35,905 nucleotides of DNA from a virus. The stretch is taken from positions 1 through 35,905 of IMG/VR virus record IMGVR_UViG_3300027730_000078. The stretch is one strand, 5' to 3'. Position numbers and translations under genes: made by a program. Below the pieces are notes generated by a model. The model saw only the letters and a program-made list of their open reading frames with translations, was not told the DNA's origin and made no database searches. Of this stretch, positions 12,581 through 28,736 are shown piece by piece. Every line of letters begins with the position of its first letter. Positions within the stretch are counted from its first letter, which is position 1.

Positions 12581-13389
12581 TGGCATCCCGGAACTACTAT
12601 ACAACCGTCTTTCAGGGGTCAACCTTCACCCCGGCTAACCTTCCGGGTATCATTCATTGGTATCGGTCAACGGTCGGGGTAACGATTAATGGCGGCACGG
12701 GTAGGGCAACGCGGGTTAATGACCAGATAGGTACAATAGATTGGCTGGATAATGCTACGGGCTTTACTGTTAACGCAACAGACCCTGCTGTTCCAAATGG
12801 CACACAGACACTTACAAGCCCCTCAAGTGGCCCTGTAAGTGTTGACCGAGCATTGGGAGATGCTGCTGCCGGATGGGTTACAACACACCCCTTTACGGTG
12901 CTGTTGATTGCAAAACTTAGCTATACATCCGGCGCACCTTCGCAGTTTACCGAGCGCGTAGGCGGGGCATTTGGTTCTGCCGTTACCCTGTTCCGACAAA
13001 GCAACGTGCCACTAAACGGCGCAAACACAAACGAATGGAGGGCCGCAACATCTGGCAACCTGTTGTTAAATGGCGCGGGAGTAAACAGCATTAACTTTAA
13101 CTCGACAACCGGGGCTAACCTGACTGTGGGGCAAACAACTCCTTACCAGATTGTCGCATTCCGAACCACAACAGGGGCAAACGGATTGCAGTTTGCAAGG
13201 AATGGTACAGTGCTGGTTCAATCAACCCCGACAACGCCACGCGTTTACACCGGATCACAATTACGCTTTAGCAATTCAACCGCAGCCATTACCTTTCTTG
13301 ACTTAATTGTCATGAATGCTACGATGTCTGCGGGCGATTATACTAATCTCAAAACCTGGCTAAACTCCGAATACGGATTCTCATTCTAA
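12580..13389 (+). CDS. Jelly-roll-like surface protein, possible receptor-binding or decoration protein
   Basis: 269 residues, rich in Thr, Asn, Ser and Gly, with short alternating hydrophobic stretches typical of beta-sandwich (concanavalin/LamG-like) domains. The opening FTPANLPGIIHWYRSTVGVT with a following WLDN..., and the ending NLKTWLNSEYGF, resemble LamG-like phage and secreted proteins that bind glycans. It is translationally coupled to the gene before it (TAATG) and stands just upstream of an exported protein and a glycosidase-like protein, so host-surface recognition is plausible. Confidence 0.5.
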   Translation: MASRNYYTTVFQGSTFTPANLPGIIHWYRSTVGVTINGGTGRATRVNDQIGTIDWLDNATGFTVNATDPAVPNGTQTLTSPSSGPVSVDRALGDAAAGWVTTHPFTVLLIAKLSYTSGAPSQFTERVGGAFGSAVTLFRQSNVPLNGANTNEWRAATSGNLLLNGAGVNSINFNSTTGANLTVGQTTPYQIVAFRTTTGANGLQFARNGTVLVQSTPTTPRVYTGSQLRFSNSTAAITFLDLIVMNATMSAGDYTNLKTWLNSEYGFSF

Positions 13390-18691: not shown

Positions 18692-18898
18692 TTAACCGAT
18701 TGAAGTCATTAATGAAGGGTTCGCCTGATTGGCCAGTTCGTAGTTGCGAGAGAAGTTGTGCCAAAGAATCTTGCGCCCATCGGCTAATTTGGCAAAGGGG
18801 GTTGAATGTGTGTGCCCACTTTTGCCATTAAACACTGTTTCTTTGCCTGTGTTAATGTTGCGCACCTTAGTGCCGAGGGTAATGTTGTAGGGGATCAT
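18692..18898 (-). CDS. Unknown small protein (68 aa)
   Basis: [20 protein letters not shown] is followed by TVFNGKSGHTHSTPFAKLAD, a basic beta-rich peptide of the kind seen in small phage KOW/SH3-like proteins. The start overlaps the stop of the Ala-rich repeat gene (ATGA), the stop lies two bases from the next start. Function unknown. Confidence 0.55.
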   Translation of the reverse strand: MIPYNITLGTKVRNINTGKETVFNGKSGHTHSTPFAKLADGRKILWHNFSRNYELANQANPSLMTSIG

Positions 18899-19404
18899 GG
18901 TAGCATCGTTTTAAGTTGTTCAATCTGCGCAGCCGATGCCGCATCCGATGCCGCATCCGATGCCGCATCCGATGCCGCAGCCGTTGCCGCATCCGATGCC
19001 GCAGCCCATGCCGCAGCCCATGCCGCATTCGTTGCCGTTGCCGCATCCGTTGCCGCAGCCCATGCCGCATCCGTTGCCCATGCCGCATCCGTTGCCGCAG
19101 CCCATGCCGCATCCAATTCATCTTGAGTTGCTTCGCCGTTCGCGAAGCGTTCAGCAACGTTGCAAGCCTTCACACTTCGCGCGTCGGGTTCCGCGATTAG
19201 CTTCAATGCTTCGCGTGCGCACCAGACGGCAAAAAGTCTATTTGCCCGCTCGTCCAAAAAGTTAGTAACTACCCAAATTCGGTCCCCCGCCGGGCAGGCT
19301 TCAATGTTCAAAATGTCCAGCAGCGTCCCCTGCCAGTCTTCGGGCAGGAACCTAACCGGGTCGTAGCATGGAGATTTTGAACGGATGTCGTTGATGGCGA
19401 TCAT
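18895..19404 (-). CDS. Alanine-rich short-repeat protein, immunity-protein-like N-terminal region
   Basis: 169 residues from [14 protein letters not shown]. Residues 50-95 contain [13 protein letters not shown]...[19 protein letters not shown], a helical segment that also occurs in putative bacterial immunity-like proteins with Ala/Trp repeats, as far as I recall that family. Residues 97-160 are a degenerate four-residue repeat (DAAW, TDAA, SDAA) encoded by a 12-base DNA repeat. All-helical and Ala-rich, it could form a helical rod. The copy number of the DNA repeat may vary. The first 12 possible upstream codons were left out because they overlap a promoter-like stretch. Confidence 0.6.
18929..19114. 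repeat. 12-bp tandem repeat array inside a coding sequence
   Basis: About fifteen units of GCCGCATCCGAT and close variants (GCCGCAGCCCAT, GCCGCATCCGTT). A unit of 12 keeps the frame, so gain or loss of units changes protein length by four residues each. The other strand gives artificial Met-Pro-His reading frames. Confidence 0.85.
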
Positions 19405-19489
19405 AGTGTGTTGTTGTGAACTGATGAAGCAAAGATGCACCCCATTTTCCAGCGGTGCAAGTTTTCGGCACTTTTTCTACACATTTTTT

Positions 19490-19807
19490 TTATGGCAAAT
19501 CAATGCCGTCCCTGCGCCGGTAAATCATAAGCATATTAGCCGCCGTGTTAATTACATCCAGCATGTTGTCTTCTATGGATTCATGGTTGGGTTCGCGGCC
19601 GGCCAGTAGTACCCCCAATCGGGACATTTTTTCTGATATACGAACTAAACATACCCGTTCGGGGCTGATCTGTGCCTGTTGTGCCGATAGGTTGTAATTG
19701 CTAAACACGTCCGTCTCGGTAGCATAATCCTCAGACTTGCTGCGCATAATCTTTAAACACTCCTCAAAAATGACCTGCGCCATTTCATCGCGTTCACTTG
19801 CTAACAT
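19490..19807 (-). CDS. Nucleotide-modification-associated protein (DUF1599-like)
   Basis: 105 residues. MRSKSEDYATETDVFSNYNL, then RISEKMSRLGVLLAG and ESIEDNMLDVINTAANMLMI match the conserved pieces of the DUF1599 / nucleotide modification associated domain family, distant relatives of MazG-type all-helical nucleotide pyrophosphohydrolases. Members often occur in phages with altered nucleotide pools. First gene of the minus-strand operon, 54 bases from the divergent ERF gene. An alternative start at residue 9 exists. Confidence 0.7.
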   Translation of the reverse strand: MLASERDEMAQVIFEECLKIMRSKSEDYATETDVFSNYNLSAQQAQISPERVCLVRISEKMSRLGVLLAGREPNHESIEDNMLDVINTAANMLMIYRRRDGIDLP

Positions 19808-19861: not shown

Positions 19862-20413
19862 ATGGAAACCACAATAACCAAAGCAATGGCAGAGGCCCTG
19901 ACCAAGTTTCAGGCGACCTGCCCAGACATTAACCTTGACGGTAAGGTCAAATTTGGCAATACTGAATTTAAGTACGCCACACTTGGCAACATTTTAAAGT
20001 TGACCAAAGGGCCGCTAAAAGAGGCTGGCTTGGTAATAAGCCAGCCCATTCTTGGCGACAAGATTATTACCGTACTGACATGCCTTGAGGACGGCACGGC
20101 CTTGCGGGCAGAAATGACATTGCCGAACCGCAACAAGCTACAAGACACCGGGGCCGATATAACGTACTGCCGCCGTTATATGTATGTGTCTTTATTAGGC
20201 ATTGTAGGCGAAGATGACAAGGACGCGGAAAACATGGGCGAAATCCCAAAGAAGGCAAAGAAGCCCGTAATGAATAAGGCAATGTTTGACAAAGCCTTAG
20301 CCCGTATTGGCGATGGAGAGCCTGAAGTTACCGCCCGCGCTTTGGAACTGCTGGACATCCCAGAAAACTTCCTTAAGCAACTGCGAGCCGCTGAACAATC
20401 CTTAAGCGCATGA
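19862..20413 (+). CDS. erf: ERF-family single-strand annealing protein
   Basis: 183 residues. FGNTEFKYATLGNILKLTKG (31-50), PLKEAGLVISQPI and the GADITYCRRYMYVSLLGIVGEDDKDAE stretch are the ERF core, ending with the acidic DDKDAE common in the family. A Lys-rich linker leads to a helical C terminus. It anneals complementary single strands during phage recombination and genome circularisation. It is divergent from the minus-strand operon, and its stop overlaps the next start (ATGA), so it is the first gene of the recombination operon. Confidence 0.93.
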   Translation: METTITKAMAEALTKFQATCPDINLDGKVKFGNTEFKYATLGNILKLTKGPLKEAGLVISQPILGDKIITVLTCLEDGTALRAEMTLPNRNKLQDTGADITYCRRYMYVSLLGIVGEDDKDAENMGEIPKKAKKPVMNKAMFDKALARIGDGEPEVTARALELLDIPENFLKQLRAAEQSLSA

Positions 20414-20703
20414 GTTGGGAAGCTGACTTGCTTGATTATGCCCTAAGCGGTGAAGGCGATCAGCCGGAAGGCGGACCAGCCAGCGAAGGCCAATTAGACT
20501 ACCTTGAGTACCTGGTGCTGGATGGCCGCGTCAACTTAACCAAGCAATGGCTCCAGCATTACTATTGCGTTCGGGATTCGCTGACCTTCAATCAAGCTAA
20601 CCAACTCATTGAACTGGTCAAACAGTTTGAACTTGATCCGGTGTGCCCTACAATGAAGGAGATTGGCGCGATGGTGGAAAGGCGGGCAAACCGTGAAGAT
20701 TAA
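20410..20703 (+). CDS. Unknown protein coupled to ERF
   Basis: 97 residues, acidic. After a 30-residue low-complexity start (EGDQPEGGPASEG), SEGQLDYLEYLVLDG and FNQANQLIELVKQF resemble the short helical modules (xxxQLxYLxxL...A..LI..L) found in many phage recombination-gene neighbours. The ATGA overlap with erf indicates co-translation and perhaps a shared role in recombination. Confidence 0.6.
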   Translation: MSWEADLLDYALSGEGDQPEGGPASEGQLDYLEYLVLDGRVNLTKQWLQHYYCVRDSLTFNQANQLIELVKQFELDPVCPTMKEIGAMVERRANRED

Positions 20704-20760
20704 TCACACGTTAATAGTACGCAAAGGCTTACCGTAAGATCAGCCAAGCGTCATTCAAGG

Positions 20761-20790
20761 CCCGATGCGTTTAGGCGTATCGGGTTTTTT
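20761..20790 (+). terminator. Intrinsic terminator of the erf operon
   Basis: CCCGATGCG, loop TTTAGG, CGTATCGGG and TTTTTT, 57 bases after the last stop codon. Confidence 0.9.
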
Positions 20791-20809
20791 GTGCTATGAT
20801 TTTGTGTAA

Positions 20810-20824
20810 AAAAAATGTGTTTGG
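20810..20824 (+). repeat. 15-bp direct repeat, copy 2
   Basis: AAAAAATGTGTTTGG, identical to the copy at 19808-19822, just behind the erf terminator and at the edge of the gene-free region. From here to 20960 I see nothing but AT-rich sequence. Confidence 0.5.
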
Positions 20825-20961
20825 CAAATATTTTCCAGAAAGAAGGGTTTTCTGGCGTTTTTTTGGTGTTTAACCGTTTCTTAGTTGATAGACTGCTGGT
20901 TGTATTGTGTTGTCTTTCAAAACATCTAACAAATAAAATGCAAGTGGAGATTGCTTTGAAG

Positions 20962-21227
20962 CAAAAGAGGGTTTTAGGCAAACGTCCAAAAAAAAGGACG
21001 CTGCTTACCCTCTCAAAATGCAATGCGGAGCCATGCCCATCGCATAAGACCGGGAGCGACCCCGGGGGCTGAAAAGCCCGGTCCACTAACTATTAACCCA
21101 ACACGACAGCGTTGCTGCCCAAATACGTTTTCAGATGCCTTCTGACGCGGTTAGTGGCCCGCTTTGTTGGTTTGGTGTGAGGCGATCCTTTCGCGTCCCA
21201 ACTGGCTACTAAGGGCGCAACCCTTAG
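20962..21227 (-). ncRNA. Candidate structured noncoding RNA, about 265 nt
   Basis: No convincing gene lies in 20704-21361. Reading the minus strand from 21227: hairpin CTAAGGG-TTGCG-CCCTTAG at the very 5' end; GTTGG/CCAAC arm enclosing GCGA/TCGC; 8-bp stem CCACTAAC/GTTAGTGG enclosing hairpins TCAGA/TCTGA and CAGC/GCTG (three-way junction); GACCGGG/CCCGGTC arm; TGCGATG/CATTGCA stem; and a long final hairpin AGAGGG...GCA.CGTCC-T8-GGACG..TGC...CCCTCT followed by a few T. The TGCGATG/CATTGCA stem has a G-U pair on the minus strand but an A-C mismatch on the plus strand, which favours minus-strand RNA. A consensus promoter points the same way. I do not recognise it as tmRNA, 6S RNA or RNase P. A replication origin is an alternative. 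Confidence 0.55.
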
Positions 21228-21232
21228 CGATG

Positions 21233-21262
21233 CAAATATAAACAAGGTTTGCGAAAAAACAA
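21233..21262 (-). promoter_or_regulatory. Perfect-consensus promoter driving the ncRNA candidate
   Basis: On the minus strand TTG (21262-21260), exactly 19 bases, TATATTTG (21240-21233). The predicted start falls at the first base of the 5' hairpin. Confidence 0.75.
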
Positions 21263-21361
21263 CCCCGATACTTTACGGAAAAATAAATGTAAGAAAAAAG
21301 CCCAAAAAGTTTGGTGCTTCGGGATTAACGGCGCAACTTAGCGGCCATAACCAGATAAGCC

Positions 21362-21877
21362 ATGTACGCAACAGACCGAATTTACTATCGCTCAATAGTT
21401 GGGCCAGGAACTTCTGAGATTCAAAATTGCTCAGACATTGAACAATTAAGAGAATGGCACAAATTGTTTGACTTAGAAATATCCAAACTAAATAAACAAC
21501 TTGAAGAAACTAGCCATCAATCAGACAGCCAAAAATATTTTAGGCTATCAGGATTTATAAAGGTTCAAAAAACAATTCGCGCTCAATTAAATAATAGAAT
21601 ACACATAATTAAGGGCACTTTAAAAGAACAGCGCGACATTATTCTTTTAAAAAGAAGTGAAAAAACCGTAAATTTTTTAAAGTACAAACTTATAGAGCTT
21701 ATAGGCCAAGATGCTGTTTTTTCTCTTCTTGATGATTTTACACAAACCGAAGAATATAGGTGTGGTTATACTCAGGCCGAATTAGATCAAATGGCGGCAG
21801 ATGCGGCCGATAAAACCAGAAGAGGGTCATTAAAACGCAAAGCGAGACTGTCTTCAAAAAAAGAAAATCAAGCATGA
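21362..21877 (+). CDS. Unknown coiled-coil protein
   Basis: 171 residues, AT-rich codons unlike the neighbours. Residues 30-100 are strongly helical and charged (LREWHKLFDLEISKLNKQLE ...), ending in a basic tail (KRKARLSSKKENQA). No known domain. The region upstream back to the ncRNA promoter is AT-rich with no clear -7 box; TACTTTAC near 21270 is a weak candidate. Its stop overlaps the next start (ATGA). Confidence 0.6.
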   Translation: MYATDRIYYRSIVGPGTSEIQNCSDIEQLREWHKLFDLEISKLNKQLEETSHQSDSQKYFRLSGFIKVQKTIRAQLNNRIHIIKGTLKEQRDIILLKRSEKTVNFLKYKLIELIGQDAVFSLLDDFTQTEEYRCGYTQAELDQMAADAADKTRRGSLKRKARLSSKKENQA

Positions 21878-24744: not shown

Positions 24745-24749
24745 CTTTG
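24742..24749 (+). promoter_or_regulatory. Leaderless-type promoter of the phosphoesterase gene
   Basis: TAACTTTG, 3 bases before the ATG at 24753; it overlaps the stop codon of the preceding gene and supports the ATG over a TTG six bases upstream. Confidence 0.55.
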
Positions 24750-24752
24750 GTT

Positions 24753-25625
24753 ATGCGAAAACACATAAACAGCATCACGGTTACGCGACCAAGCCACGCA
24801 TTAACTTACGTGGACATAGAGTGCGACAATGTTCACGCCTCTATGCCCATCCTGTTTACTGCGGACAGGCATTGGGATAACCCAAAGTCTGACCAAAAGA
24901 TGCAAAAAAAGCACCTTGATTGGGCGGTTGAAAATGGGGCGTTGATAGTGGATGTGGGGGATTTGTTTTGCGCTATGCAGGGGGCTGGCGATCCGCGAGG
25001 CAGCAAAAGCGATATTAGGCCCGAACACATGACGGGGCGTTATTTGAACAGCCTTAGCAGCACGGCGGCTGACTACTTTAAGCCATATGCAAAGCAGTTT
25101 CTTGCTCTGTTCTACGGCAACCATGAAACATCGGTTATTAAAAAGAAAGAATATGACCTGACCGAGCGGCTGGCGCACGACCTTTCGCGCGAGGGTTCGG
25201 ATGTTCAAAAAATGGGTTATTCGGGGTATATTAGGCTTAACATGAGGCGCAAAAACAGCGGCGACCGCAAGACGTTTACAATTTACTGCAACCACGGAAG
25301 CGGCGGCGGTGGTATTGTAACGAAGGGCGTTATACAGACCAACAGGCGGGCGGTGTTTGTTGCAGATGCGGACCTTGTTGTTTCGGGGCACATTCACGAG
25401 GCGTGGATGCTGGAGGTTCCAAAGGAGCGCATTAATCAAAACCATGTGCCGGTTTTAGAAACACAGGTTCACCTTCAGTTGCCGACCTACAAAGAAGAGT
25501 ACATGGCGCATGAGGGCTATCACATTGAGAAAGGAGGCCCACCAAAGCCATTGGGCGCGTGGGCTGTTCATTTTGAGTTTGGGGGCGGTGGGCTTAAATC
25601 AATGAGTCCTCAAAGGTTGCATTAA
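24753..25625 (+). CDS. Calcineurin-like metallophosphoesterase
   Basis: 290 residues. The dinuclear metal site is almost complete: TADRHWDN (D38, H40), DVGDLF (67-72), GNHE (122-125), CNHG with H181, and GHIH (212-215). The order D-x-H...GD...GNH(E)...H...GHxH defines the family. Phage members often act on DNA ends or nucleotides, like SbcD/Mre11 relatives, but no SbcC partner is seen here. It stands alone under its own promoter between the replication genes and terminase. Confidence 0.9.
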   Translation: MRKHINSITVTRPSHALTYVDIECDNVHASMPILFTADRHWDNPKSDQKMQKKHLDWAVENGALIVDVGDLFCAMQGAGDPRGSKSDIRPEHMTGRYLNSLSSTAADYFKPYAKQFLALFYGNHETSVIKKKEYDLTERLAHDLSREGSDVQKMGYSGYIRLNMRRKNSGDRKTFTIYCNHGSGGGGIVTKGVIQTNRRAVFVADADLVVSGHIHEAWMLEVPKERINQNHVPVLETQVHLQLPTYKEEYMAHEGYHIEKGGPPKPLGAWAVHFEFGGGGLKSMSPQRLH

Positions 25626-25636
25626 GGTTTTTTGCT

Positions 25637-25644
25637 TATATTTG
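25637..25644 (+). promoter_or_regulatory. Leaderless-type promoter
   Basis: TTGCTTATATTTGTC around 25634-25646 matches the box before the 269-811 gene; the GTG of the 36-aa gene follows after 4 bases. Confidence 0.6.
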
Positions 25645-25648
25645 TCCC

Positions 25649-25759
25649 GTGGAAAAGCGCACGGTCAAAGCGATTAAGGCGTTAAGCCGGAACACTAGGC
25701 CCAAGCGTGGGTCTGTGGTTATGGTGTCTAAGAAGGTGTACAATAGGAAGCGTAATTAA
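25649..25759 (+). CDS. Very small basic protein (36 aa)
   Basis: From GTG: MEKRTVKAIKALSRNTRPKR, then GSVVMVSKKVYNRKRN. Net charge is strongly positive. The start is set by the promoter box 4 bases upstream. Similar in style to the 24-aa protein before the portal gene. It may bind nucleic acid; nothing more can be said. Confidence 0.45.
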   Translation: MEKRTVKAIKALSRNTRPKRGSVVMVSKKVYNRKRN

Positions 25760-26141: not shown

Positions 26142-27443
26142 TTGAATGTCGAGTTACCCATTGCCAATGACCCAGCGATTGCCCGCATCTTTAGAGCGCG
26201 GGAGAGGTTTAAGCTATTGCGTAAGGGCAGGCGAGTAGGGGCAACGCGCAGCAAGGCTAATGATTGGATTGAACTGGCCGTAGAGAGCGAGGCAGAACTA
26301 AAGTTCCTTTGGGTTGACACGGTGCAAAGGAACATCGACCGCTATTACGAACGGTTTTTTTGGAAGCCCCTACGCAACCTGCCCCGGCAACTTTGGGAAT
26401 GGAACGGGCAGCGCAAGACCCTGCGGATTCGGGAGAGCCTTATTGACTTTGGCAGCGCGGAGAGGCCGGAGAACCTTGAGGGGTTCGGCTATGACGATAT
26501 GTTCCTGAATGAGGCTGGAATCATTCTCAAGGGCGACAATGGCCGGAAGCTGTGGGAAGAGAGTTTGCGCCCGATGCTTTCAGACCGTCAAGGCACGGCC
26601 CTAATAGCTGGCGTGCCAAAGGGCTTGCGCGATAACTACTTTGCTCACCTGTGGATTACCACGCAAGGCAATCCAGATTGGGGGCATTACACGCTGACAA
26701 GCTACGAAAGCCCGTATGTCAAGCGTTCCGAAGTAGAGGCAATGGAGCGCGACATGCACCCGTCAACGGCCCGTCAGGAGATATGGGCAGAGTTCATCGA
26801 CTATGCCGCTACGGAGATGCCGTGGCTTATGAACTTCACAGACGAGCATGTCAGCACTGAAGCCGTGTACCGGCCAAACCTTCCGGTTATCCTGTCTTTT
26901 GACTTTAACATTGACCCGATGGTGGCAACGTGCCATCACATGTGGTTCGATTCAGCGGGCCATCATTGGCATACTTTTGATGAGATAGTGATACCGAACG
27001 GGTCGGTCCCCGCAGCCATTAAAATCATAACCGATAAGTTCCCGCCGCATGTGCTGGCTGGTGTGATTGTAACGGGCGATGCAACCAGCAGCAAGAAGGA
27101 CATTAACGCGATTGACCACCGCTCTAGCTGGCTGCTGATTAAACAGGGCTTGCGGGTTAGCGATGCTAGGTTTAAGGTTCCCCGGTCTAACCCTAGTGTG
27201 GCCACCAACCGGGAACTATGCAACTACATCTGTTATGCCCACCCTGACGTTAAGGTTAGCCCCGTTTGCAAGACGCTGCTTTATGAGTTAAAGTACACCG
27301 AAGCCGATGCGGAAGGCGGCATACCCAAAAAGAACAGGAGCAAGCTAGAACAGCGGGCTGACGCGCTGGATACCTGGCGATACGTGGCTAATGCGTTTAT
27401 ACCAGACTTTATTGAAAAGCCGTATAAGTACAAAAAAAGTTAG
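26142..27443 (+). CDS. terL: Large terminase subunit
   Basis: 433 residues from TTG; the only in-frame start after the upstream stop and before the ATPase motifs. Motor domain: Walker A of the RGRRxGxT style, KGRRVGATRS at 28-37, and Walker B MFLNE at 120-124. Nuclease domain: SFDFNIDP (252-259), GDATS (312-316) and DALDTW (407-412) supply the acidic metal ligands of the RNase H-like fold. It packages DNA into the procapsid and cuts it at the start and end. Unlike in most siphoviruses, the portal gene does not follow; tail genes do. Confidence 0.95.
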   Translation: MNVELPIANDPAIARIFRARERFKLLRKGRRVGATRSKANDWIELAVESEAELKFLWVDTVQRNIDRYYERFFWKPLRNLPRQLWEWNGQRKTLRIRESLIDFGSAERPENLEGFGYDDMFLNEAGIILKGDNGRKLWEESLRPMLSDRQGTALIAGVPKGLRDNYFAHLWITTQGNPDWGHYTLTSYESPYVKRSEVEAMERDMHPSTARQEIWAEFIDYAATEMPWLMNFTDEHVSTEAVYRPNLPVILSFDFNIDPMVATCHHMWFDSAGHHWHTFDEIVIPNGSVPAAIKIITDKFPPHVLAGVIVTGDATSSKKDINAIDHRSSWLLIKQGLRVSDARFKVPRSNPSVATNRELCNYICYAHPDVKVSPVCKTLLYELKYTEADAEGGIPKKNRSKLEQRADALDTWRYVANAFIPDFIEKPYKYKKS

Positions 27444-28010: not shown

Positions 28011-28231
28011 AGACCGCACACCCTGACCTACCCCTGTCCTTCAACGACTGGGCACAATACGTCCACCAGCATTTCCGCGAGAAAGGTGTAACTTCGGAGC
28101 ATGGGATGCAACCTATGCTACGACCTTTGCGAGATTTACAAGGGCAACCCGCTTCAGATAATCGGGAGCGTGGACGATCTGAATGCGCAAGTGATTGCGT
28201 TTATCACGAACTTGGGGTCAGGCCGTACTGA
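28007..28231 (+). CDS. Doubtful small protein overlapping the next gene
   Basis: The ATGA overlap with the preceding stop argues for a true start, and the first ~31 residues (MKTAHPDLPLSFNDWAQYVH ...) look coding. After base 28101 the frame runs antisense in character to the convincing 28101-28424 frame and looks like a shadow. Either the gene really overlaps by 131 bases, or it has lost its original end through a frameshift. Confidence 0.35.
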   Translation: MKTAHPDLPLSFNDWAQYVHQHFREKGVTSEHGMQPMLRPLRDLQGQPASDNRERGRSECASDCVYHELGVRPY

Positions 28232-28424
28232 CGCCCAAGACATTACAACTACCGCTGACGGTACGGTCAGGCTTGACCTTACGGAGGACTACCTAGAGGC
28301 CGGCCAGACCTACCGAGTGCAGCTAAGCCTGCTGGAATACGGCAGCGACTATTTACCGATTACCCCGCCCGACAGTTTAACTGAGTACACATGCATTATG
28401 TTCACCATACGGGCATTGTGCTAA
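28101..28424 (+). CDS. Unknown protein (107 aa), possible small tail or neck protein
   Basis: MGCNLCYDLCEIYKGNPLQI opens with three Cys; the rest (DAQDITTTADGTVRLDLTED, LEAGQTYRVQLSLLEYGSDY) is an immunoglobulin-like beta pattern common in virion proteins. No promoter box; translation probably continues from the overlapping frame upstream. Confidence 0.55.
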   Translation: MGCNLCYDLCEIYKGNPLQIIGSVDDLNAQVIAFITNLGSGRTDAQDITTTADGTVRLDLTEDYLEAGQTYRVQLSLLEYGSDYLPITPPDSLTEYTCIMFTIRALC

Positions 28425-28443
28425 GTTGGACTTGCACGGCCCC

Positions 28444-28451
28444 TATCTTTT
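28444..28451 (+). promoter_or_regulatory. Leaderless-type promoter
   Basis: TATCTTTT with a TTG 12 bases upstream, 6 bases before the ATG at 28458. Confidence 0.45.
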
Positions 28452-28457
28452 TCACAT

Positions 28458-28736
28458 ATGACTTACTCGATTGGGCCGAATCTTCCGGCTACTTTCCGCG
28501 AACTGTTGCCTACACGCTTTACTTTTGAAGAGTTCCTAGAGATTGCCGGCCACAACTGCCGTAGGCGCAAAGCGGTTGCCGCTGACTGGATACGCGAACT
28601 GGAAAGCCCCGACCCCTTTGAGAGCTGGCGCAACCCCGAAGGCTTGTATAATCCAAACCACGGGCGTAACTTGCTGACCGGATGGGACGACAAGACCGAC
28701 AAGATTAGCCGGATTAAAGATGGCTATGAAGTATAG
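28458..28736 (+). CDS. Unknown protein (92 aa)
   Basis: Starts MTYSIGPNLPATFRELLPTR; helical N-terminal half with FEEFLEIAGHNCRRRKAVAA and an Asn/Gly/Asp-rich end. GC-rich codon use matches the structural genes. No family recognised. Confidence 0.55.
   Translation: MTYSIGPNLPATFRELLPTRFTFEEFLEIAGHNCRRRKAVAADWIRELESPDPFESWRNPEGLYNPNHGRNLLTGWDDKTDKISRIKDGYEV

Follow-up and report, generated by a model that had tools for sequence, protein, structure and literature searches.

A candidate orphan non-coding RNA behind a probable minus-strand promoter in the longest gene-free gap of a tailed phage

Genomic context

The DNA analysed here (the window), a virus record, is 35,905 bases long, has a GC content of 0.49 and lacks terminal repeats. 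It belongs to a tailed phage with its structural genes on the left, followed by the gene of an Erf recombinase (19862-20413, plus strand; Pfam PF04404, E 1.7e-11), an exonuclease-like gene (24747-25625) and the large terminase gene (26142-27443). Divergent from erf, and 54 nt away from its start, begins a group of minus-strand genes (19807-17104); the product of the one at 18895-19440 has a C-terminal half consisting of an Ala/Asp/Trp/Ser low-complexity repeat. Within the collections the phage is isolated: related terminases are 25-45% identical and related portal proteins 23-30%, with the exception of L134/L182 at 70%. This best relative is a 4.8-kb fragment that lacks the gap region described below.

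The longest gene-free gap of the window extends from 20704 to 21361 (658 nt), between the erf operon and a plus-strand gene for a protein of 171 residues (21362-21877). Open reading frames in the gap (111, 85, 50 and 40 residues) score -0.06 to -0.16 for codon use, like shadow ORFs (mean -0.05; nearly all known genes score 0.01-0.23), match no credible PHROG or Pfam family and have no tblastn partner in related phages. A coding gene in the gap is thereby rejected, which bears out the description of the segment 20960-21262 in an earlier note as free of genes. No trace of a lost gene was found in the six frames of the gap, and ARAGORN detected no tRNA or tmRNA gene.

On the erf side, two terminator-like hairpins on the plus strand agree with the operon terminator noted before. 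One, read from the sequence, pairs CCCGATGCG with CGTATCGGG and is followed by T6 (20761-20790); the second was found by a terminator scan (20835-20862). Neither has a U-run when read on the minus strand. On the other side, the 171-residue protein has no assigned function, family or detected relative; the codon score of its gene is weak (0.03), and its single-sequence structure model (pLDDT 57) is too poor for use. The gene is AT-rich (GC about 0.33, versus 0.49 for the window) and was possibly acquired recently. Its antisense strand (21401-21660) folds with a z-score of -4.86, more strongly than the segment in the gap. Among the neighbouring proteins searched, which are part of the window's genes, no retron, diversity-generating element or AbiF-type partner was seen.

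Within the gap a GC-rich island (0.51-0.58, overall 0.54) coincides with the transcript predicted below and lies between AT-rich flanks (0.34-0.38), including a gene-free spacer at 20796-20960 with a GC content of about 0.35. No iteron-like repeats or repeat array were found, and the DnaA box TTATnCACA is absent from the window. The minimum of the cumulative GC skew, at 19805, is a flat one that spans 17.5 to 22.5 kb; the skew turns from negative to positive at 19805 although the genes on both sides lie mostly on the plus strand.

A probable minus-strand promoter pointing into gene-free DNA

Promoters read by the primary sigma factor of Bacteroidetes have the consensus TAnnTTTG at -7 and TTTG near -33 (PMC7366714, PMC9723704). 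On the minus strand of the gap, a perfect match to TAnnTTTG, TATATTTG, is located at 21240-21233, with a TTG (context GTTG) 19 nt before it at 21262-21260, the spacing expected of a -33 element. The promoter had been called perfect; TTG-N19-TATATTTG is indeed present at 21262-21233, but the -33 element agrees with the full TTTG in three of its four bases. The exact arrangement TTG-N19-TAnnTTTG occurs once in the window, at this site, against 0.66 occurrences expected by chance. Stronger evidence for a promoter than this exact match, and the strongest in the whole case, is the enrichment of the box: TATATTTG is present in seven copies versus 1.2 expected, a roughly 6-fold excess, and none of 100 shuffled sequences reached seven.

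The other six copies (at 205, 7763, 25637, 25766, 29736 and 30669) lie on the plus strand ahead of ORFs. The copy at 21240 alone lies on the minus strand and points into gene-free DNA, and it alone lacks an ATG-started ORF of at least 35 residues within 300 nt; the first ORF behind it with any start codon begins 146 nt away and has a non-coding codon score. Of the 62 boxes in related phages, 48 are followed by an ORF within 120 nt (versus 42% at random places), and one copy is conserved before an operon homologous to gene 269. Together with the TTG 19 nt before it, the minus-strand box is probably a genuine promoter. These statistics give good support to minus-strand transcription from about 21228, a start predicted from the placement of TAnnTTTG at -12 to -5 (PMC9723704). 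By itself, the promoter motif also points to a Bacteroidetes host.

Several further boxes deserve mention in their own right. Four nucleotides behind the copy at 25637-25644, a GTG codon opens a basic ORF of 36 residues (25649-25759), which is probably an unannotated small gene. In a distant relative (L330), a TATATTTG box at 13076 precedes a 180-nt gene-free leader on the minus strand (12890-13069), which has a long closing stem (z -3.27) and stands directly before a gene of the Rha family (Pfam PF09669, E 6e-29). In four other relatives (L315, 8487-8580; L317, 2820; L318, 17524; L335, 1941) about 85 nt of DNA without genes follow the box. This element, convergent with an exonuclease gene, ends in a hairpin and a U-run (z -2.61) and is a candidate small RNA.

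Predicted transcript and its helices

Initiation at 21228 and termination near 20962, the latter a guess, would yield a non-coding minus-strand RNA of about 267 nt with a GC content of 0.54. Its 5' end is predicted to fold into a hairpin (21228-21208) around the perfect 7-bp dyad CTAAGGG/CCCTTAG, with nine pairs and a pair probability of 0.97. Transcription had been expected to begin at the first base of this hairpin, which holds to within 1-2 nt: the predicted start is 21228 and the hairpin begins at 21227. The dyad CTAAGGG-TTGCG-CCCTTAG occurs once in the window, at the predicted start, and could equally be a DNA operator.

A second hairpin (21202-21166) pairs GUUGG with CCAAC and, further inside, GCGA with UCGC (pair probability 0.74-0.82). 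It is followed by an 8-bp stem, CCACUAAC/GUUAGUGG (21157-21083), which closes a three-way junction with the hairpins 21145-21131 and 21119-21105 and has a probability of 0.87 in the 267-nt RNA. Two adjacent GC-rich hairpins, GGGCUUUUCAGCCC and CCGGGGUCGCUCCCGG (21079-21050; 0.88-0.95), precede an 8-bp hairpin (21045-21018) whose pair probability of 0.55-0.92 varies with the 3' end chosen. The predicted RNA closes with a long hairpin (21014-20965; 0.95) followed by UUUUGCUU, a possible intrinsic terminator. The U-run behind it is short and weak (UUUU), and the site does not appear in the terminator scan.

The stems listed in the earlier note, including the perfect 8-bp pairing CCACTAAC/GTTAGTGG and the terminal hairpin, can all form, but the three-way junction is lost in longer RNA, being replaced by other pairings in versions of 289 and 439 nt; an extension of 22 nt suffices. 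Also correct is the remark that one stem has a G-U pair only as minus-strand RNA: on the opposite strand, the G-U pairs of GGUAAG/UUUGCC would become C-A and A-C mismatches. In the folding models the robust elements are single helices, namely the 5' hairpin, the two GC-rich hairpins and the terminal hairpin, while the three-way junction is not robust.

Folding energy against background

The minus strand of 21230-20960 folds with -102.2 kcal/mol (z -2.20), and 7 of 200 shuffled sequences fold as well. The plus strand of the same stretch reaches -100.4 kcal/mol (z -2.73), so the segment folds slightly better than its shuffled controls, but so does the opposite strand. Of its parts, the junction stretch 21161-21046 alone has z-scores of -1.88 (minus) and -3.08 (plus), and the 3' part 21064-20962 alone has -3.37. 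In a scan of the whole window, 6.7-7.8% of all 260-nt windows attain -2.2. Far lower values occur in coding windows, two of which, with 200 shuffles each, gave -3.3 (the plus strand at 28201-28460) and -4.9. As a consequence, the description of the segment as highly structured is overstated and not supported as a feature that sets it apart.

Search for homologues and comparison with known RNAs

Relatives were sought by scanning viral contigs with Erf, terminase and portal alignments and with hand-made motif patterns, and by scans of genome contigs. A blastn search with the segment against phage and plasmid collections gave no homologue, nor was one found in about 340 loci and about 45 related phage records. 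The relatives with portal proteins 23-30% identical yielded nothing in blastn, nhmmer or a single-sequence covariance model, and the same model found nothing in the exonuclease-bearing records. Since a single-sequence model is of limited reach, these searches show only the absence of a close homologue in the sets searched. With the covariance models of Rfam 15, the whole window gave no match at the gathering threshold, and at E<=10 the region 20700-21400 gave chance-level matches only, in agreement with the statement that the RNA is not a known one.

The 6S RNA of Bacteroidetes is also non-coding and broadly comparable in size. It consists, however, of one long hairpin with a central bubble, whereas the candidate has many short stems and no Rfam match. 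The ornate RNAs ROOL, GOLLD and OLE are likewise large RNAs of gene-free DNA, some of them in phages, but they exceed 400 nt and are detectable by Rfam models, none of which matched here. With the put RNA of phage HK022 the candidate shares a structured RNA right behind a phage promoter and adjacent stem-loops, a resemblance only. The put RNA measures about 70 nt and acts in cis at the head of long early operons (PMC9378689), while the candidate is about 265 nt long, has no proven downstream operon and has no Rfam match.

The RCd22/abiF RNA and the RNAs of type III toxin-antitoxin systems are also phage-encoded structured RNAs beside a gene. They lie upstream of a toxin gene on the same strand and carry abiF motifs (RF03085) or tandem repeats (PMC12373285). 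The neighbour of the candidate is divergent and not AbiF-like, and neither repeats nor an RF03085 match are present. An RNA of the AbiF/RCd22 type is excluded by the gene order, the missing partner and the missing motif. A type III toxin-antitoxin RNA does not fit either, as the neighbouring genes belong to no toxin family, and there is no repeat array and no Rfam match.

Possible roles of the segment

We tentatively prefer to read the segment as a stand-alone, leftward-transcribed orphan non-coding RNA gene, because the shift in base composition, the promoter, the 5' hairpin and the 3' hairpin frame the same 267 nt. The start, the 3' end and the stability of this RNA are predictions, and its mode of action is a guess. 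The host RNA polymerase, directed by the primary sigma factor, would initiate at about 21228 on the minus strand and produce an untranslated RNA, about 265 nt long, whose extreme 5' end forms a hairpin that is followed by several more. Transcription would stop at or near the hairpin 21014-20965, and the product would most likely accumulate as a separate folded RNA.

Unlikely, in our view, is that the same RNA is instead the leader of a long leftward early transcript serving the genes at 19807-17104, for example an antitermination element that works in cis on RNA polymerase, like the HK022 put RNA. The 21240 box is the best leftward promoter in this region, with no good -7 box before the minus-strand genes left of erf, the erf terminators offer no U-run in this direction, and the two adjacent GC-rich hairpins recall the two stem-loops of put behind its early promoter (PMC9378689). 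Such a transcript must, however, cross 1.4 kb, including the entire erf operon in antisense, and could already end at the hairpin 21014-20965. Other early operons of the phage also lack a strong box, so its absence before 19807 proves little, and no Rfam model supports the analogy.

An equally improbable reading places the function in the DNA: the dyad at 21209-21227 would be the operator of a regulator, and the gap an early control region, a replication origin or both, with the RNA having no role. The perfect 7-5-7 dyad, found once in the window, sits at the start site, the plus strand folds equally well, and AT-rich DNA adjoins the structured segment. From its minimum at 19805 the cumulative GC skew climbs to the right though the flanking genes are mostly on the plus strand. 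It is this minimum that gives the suggested link to an origin a weak hint, but the minimum is flat between 17.5 and 22.5 kb, and iteron-like repeats and a DnaA box are missing. There is also no second good operator (at 21325-21342, a copy-like match to the 5' hairpin loses significance after correction), and several stems are present rather than one. More doubtful still is that the segment serves only as a spacer: the box would be accidental, the gap could for instance be what is left of a lost gene, and the stems would be typical of GC-rich DNA. About 7% of the phage windows fold as well, 1.2 boxes are expected by chance, and no conservation is detectable in the sets searched. Pure chance is made less likely, however, by a gap of 658 nt in a compact genome, by the -33 element that accompanies the box and by the agreement of the composition with the predicted transcript ends; a lost gene has left no trace in six frames.

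If the segment is a stand-alone RNA gene, its product may act as a regulator that binds a phage or host protein or pairs with a host RNA, which is a guess. Antisense action on phage mRNA finds no match beyond chance, and nothing speaks directly for the proposed control of early genes. The promoter statistics and the absence of coding make the earlier wording of a probable new phage non-coding RNA fair, and Rfam has no match to it; its structural part is weak. What emerges is an orphan candidate with a well-supported promoter and a putative structure and role. It is a long shot that this RNA, about 265 nt long and expressed from a strong host-type promoter, is the first representative of a new class in Bacteroidetes phages and acts in trans on the host machinery or on phage replication.

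Very little is known about the non-coding RNAs of Bacteroidetes phages, and a promoter box that can be read from the genome allows transcripts leading into gene-free DNA to be picked out. The present segment is one of these, and two further candidates of this kind are found in distant relatives.
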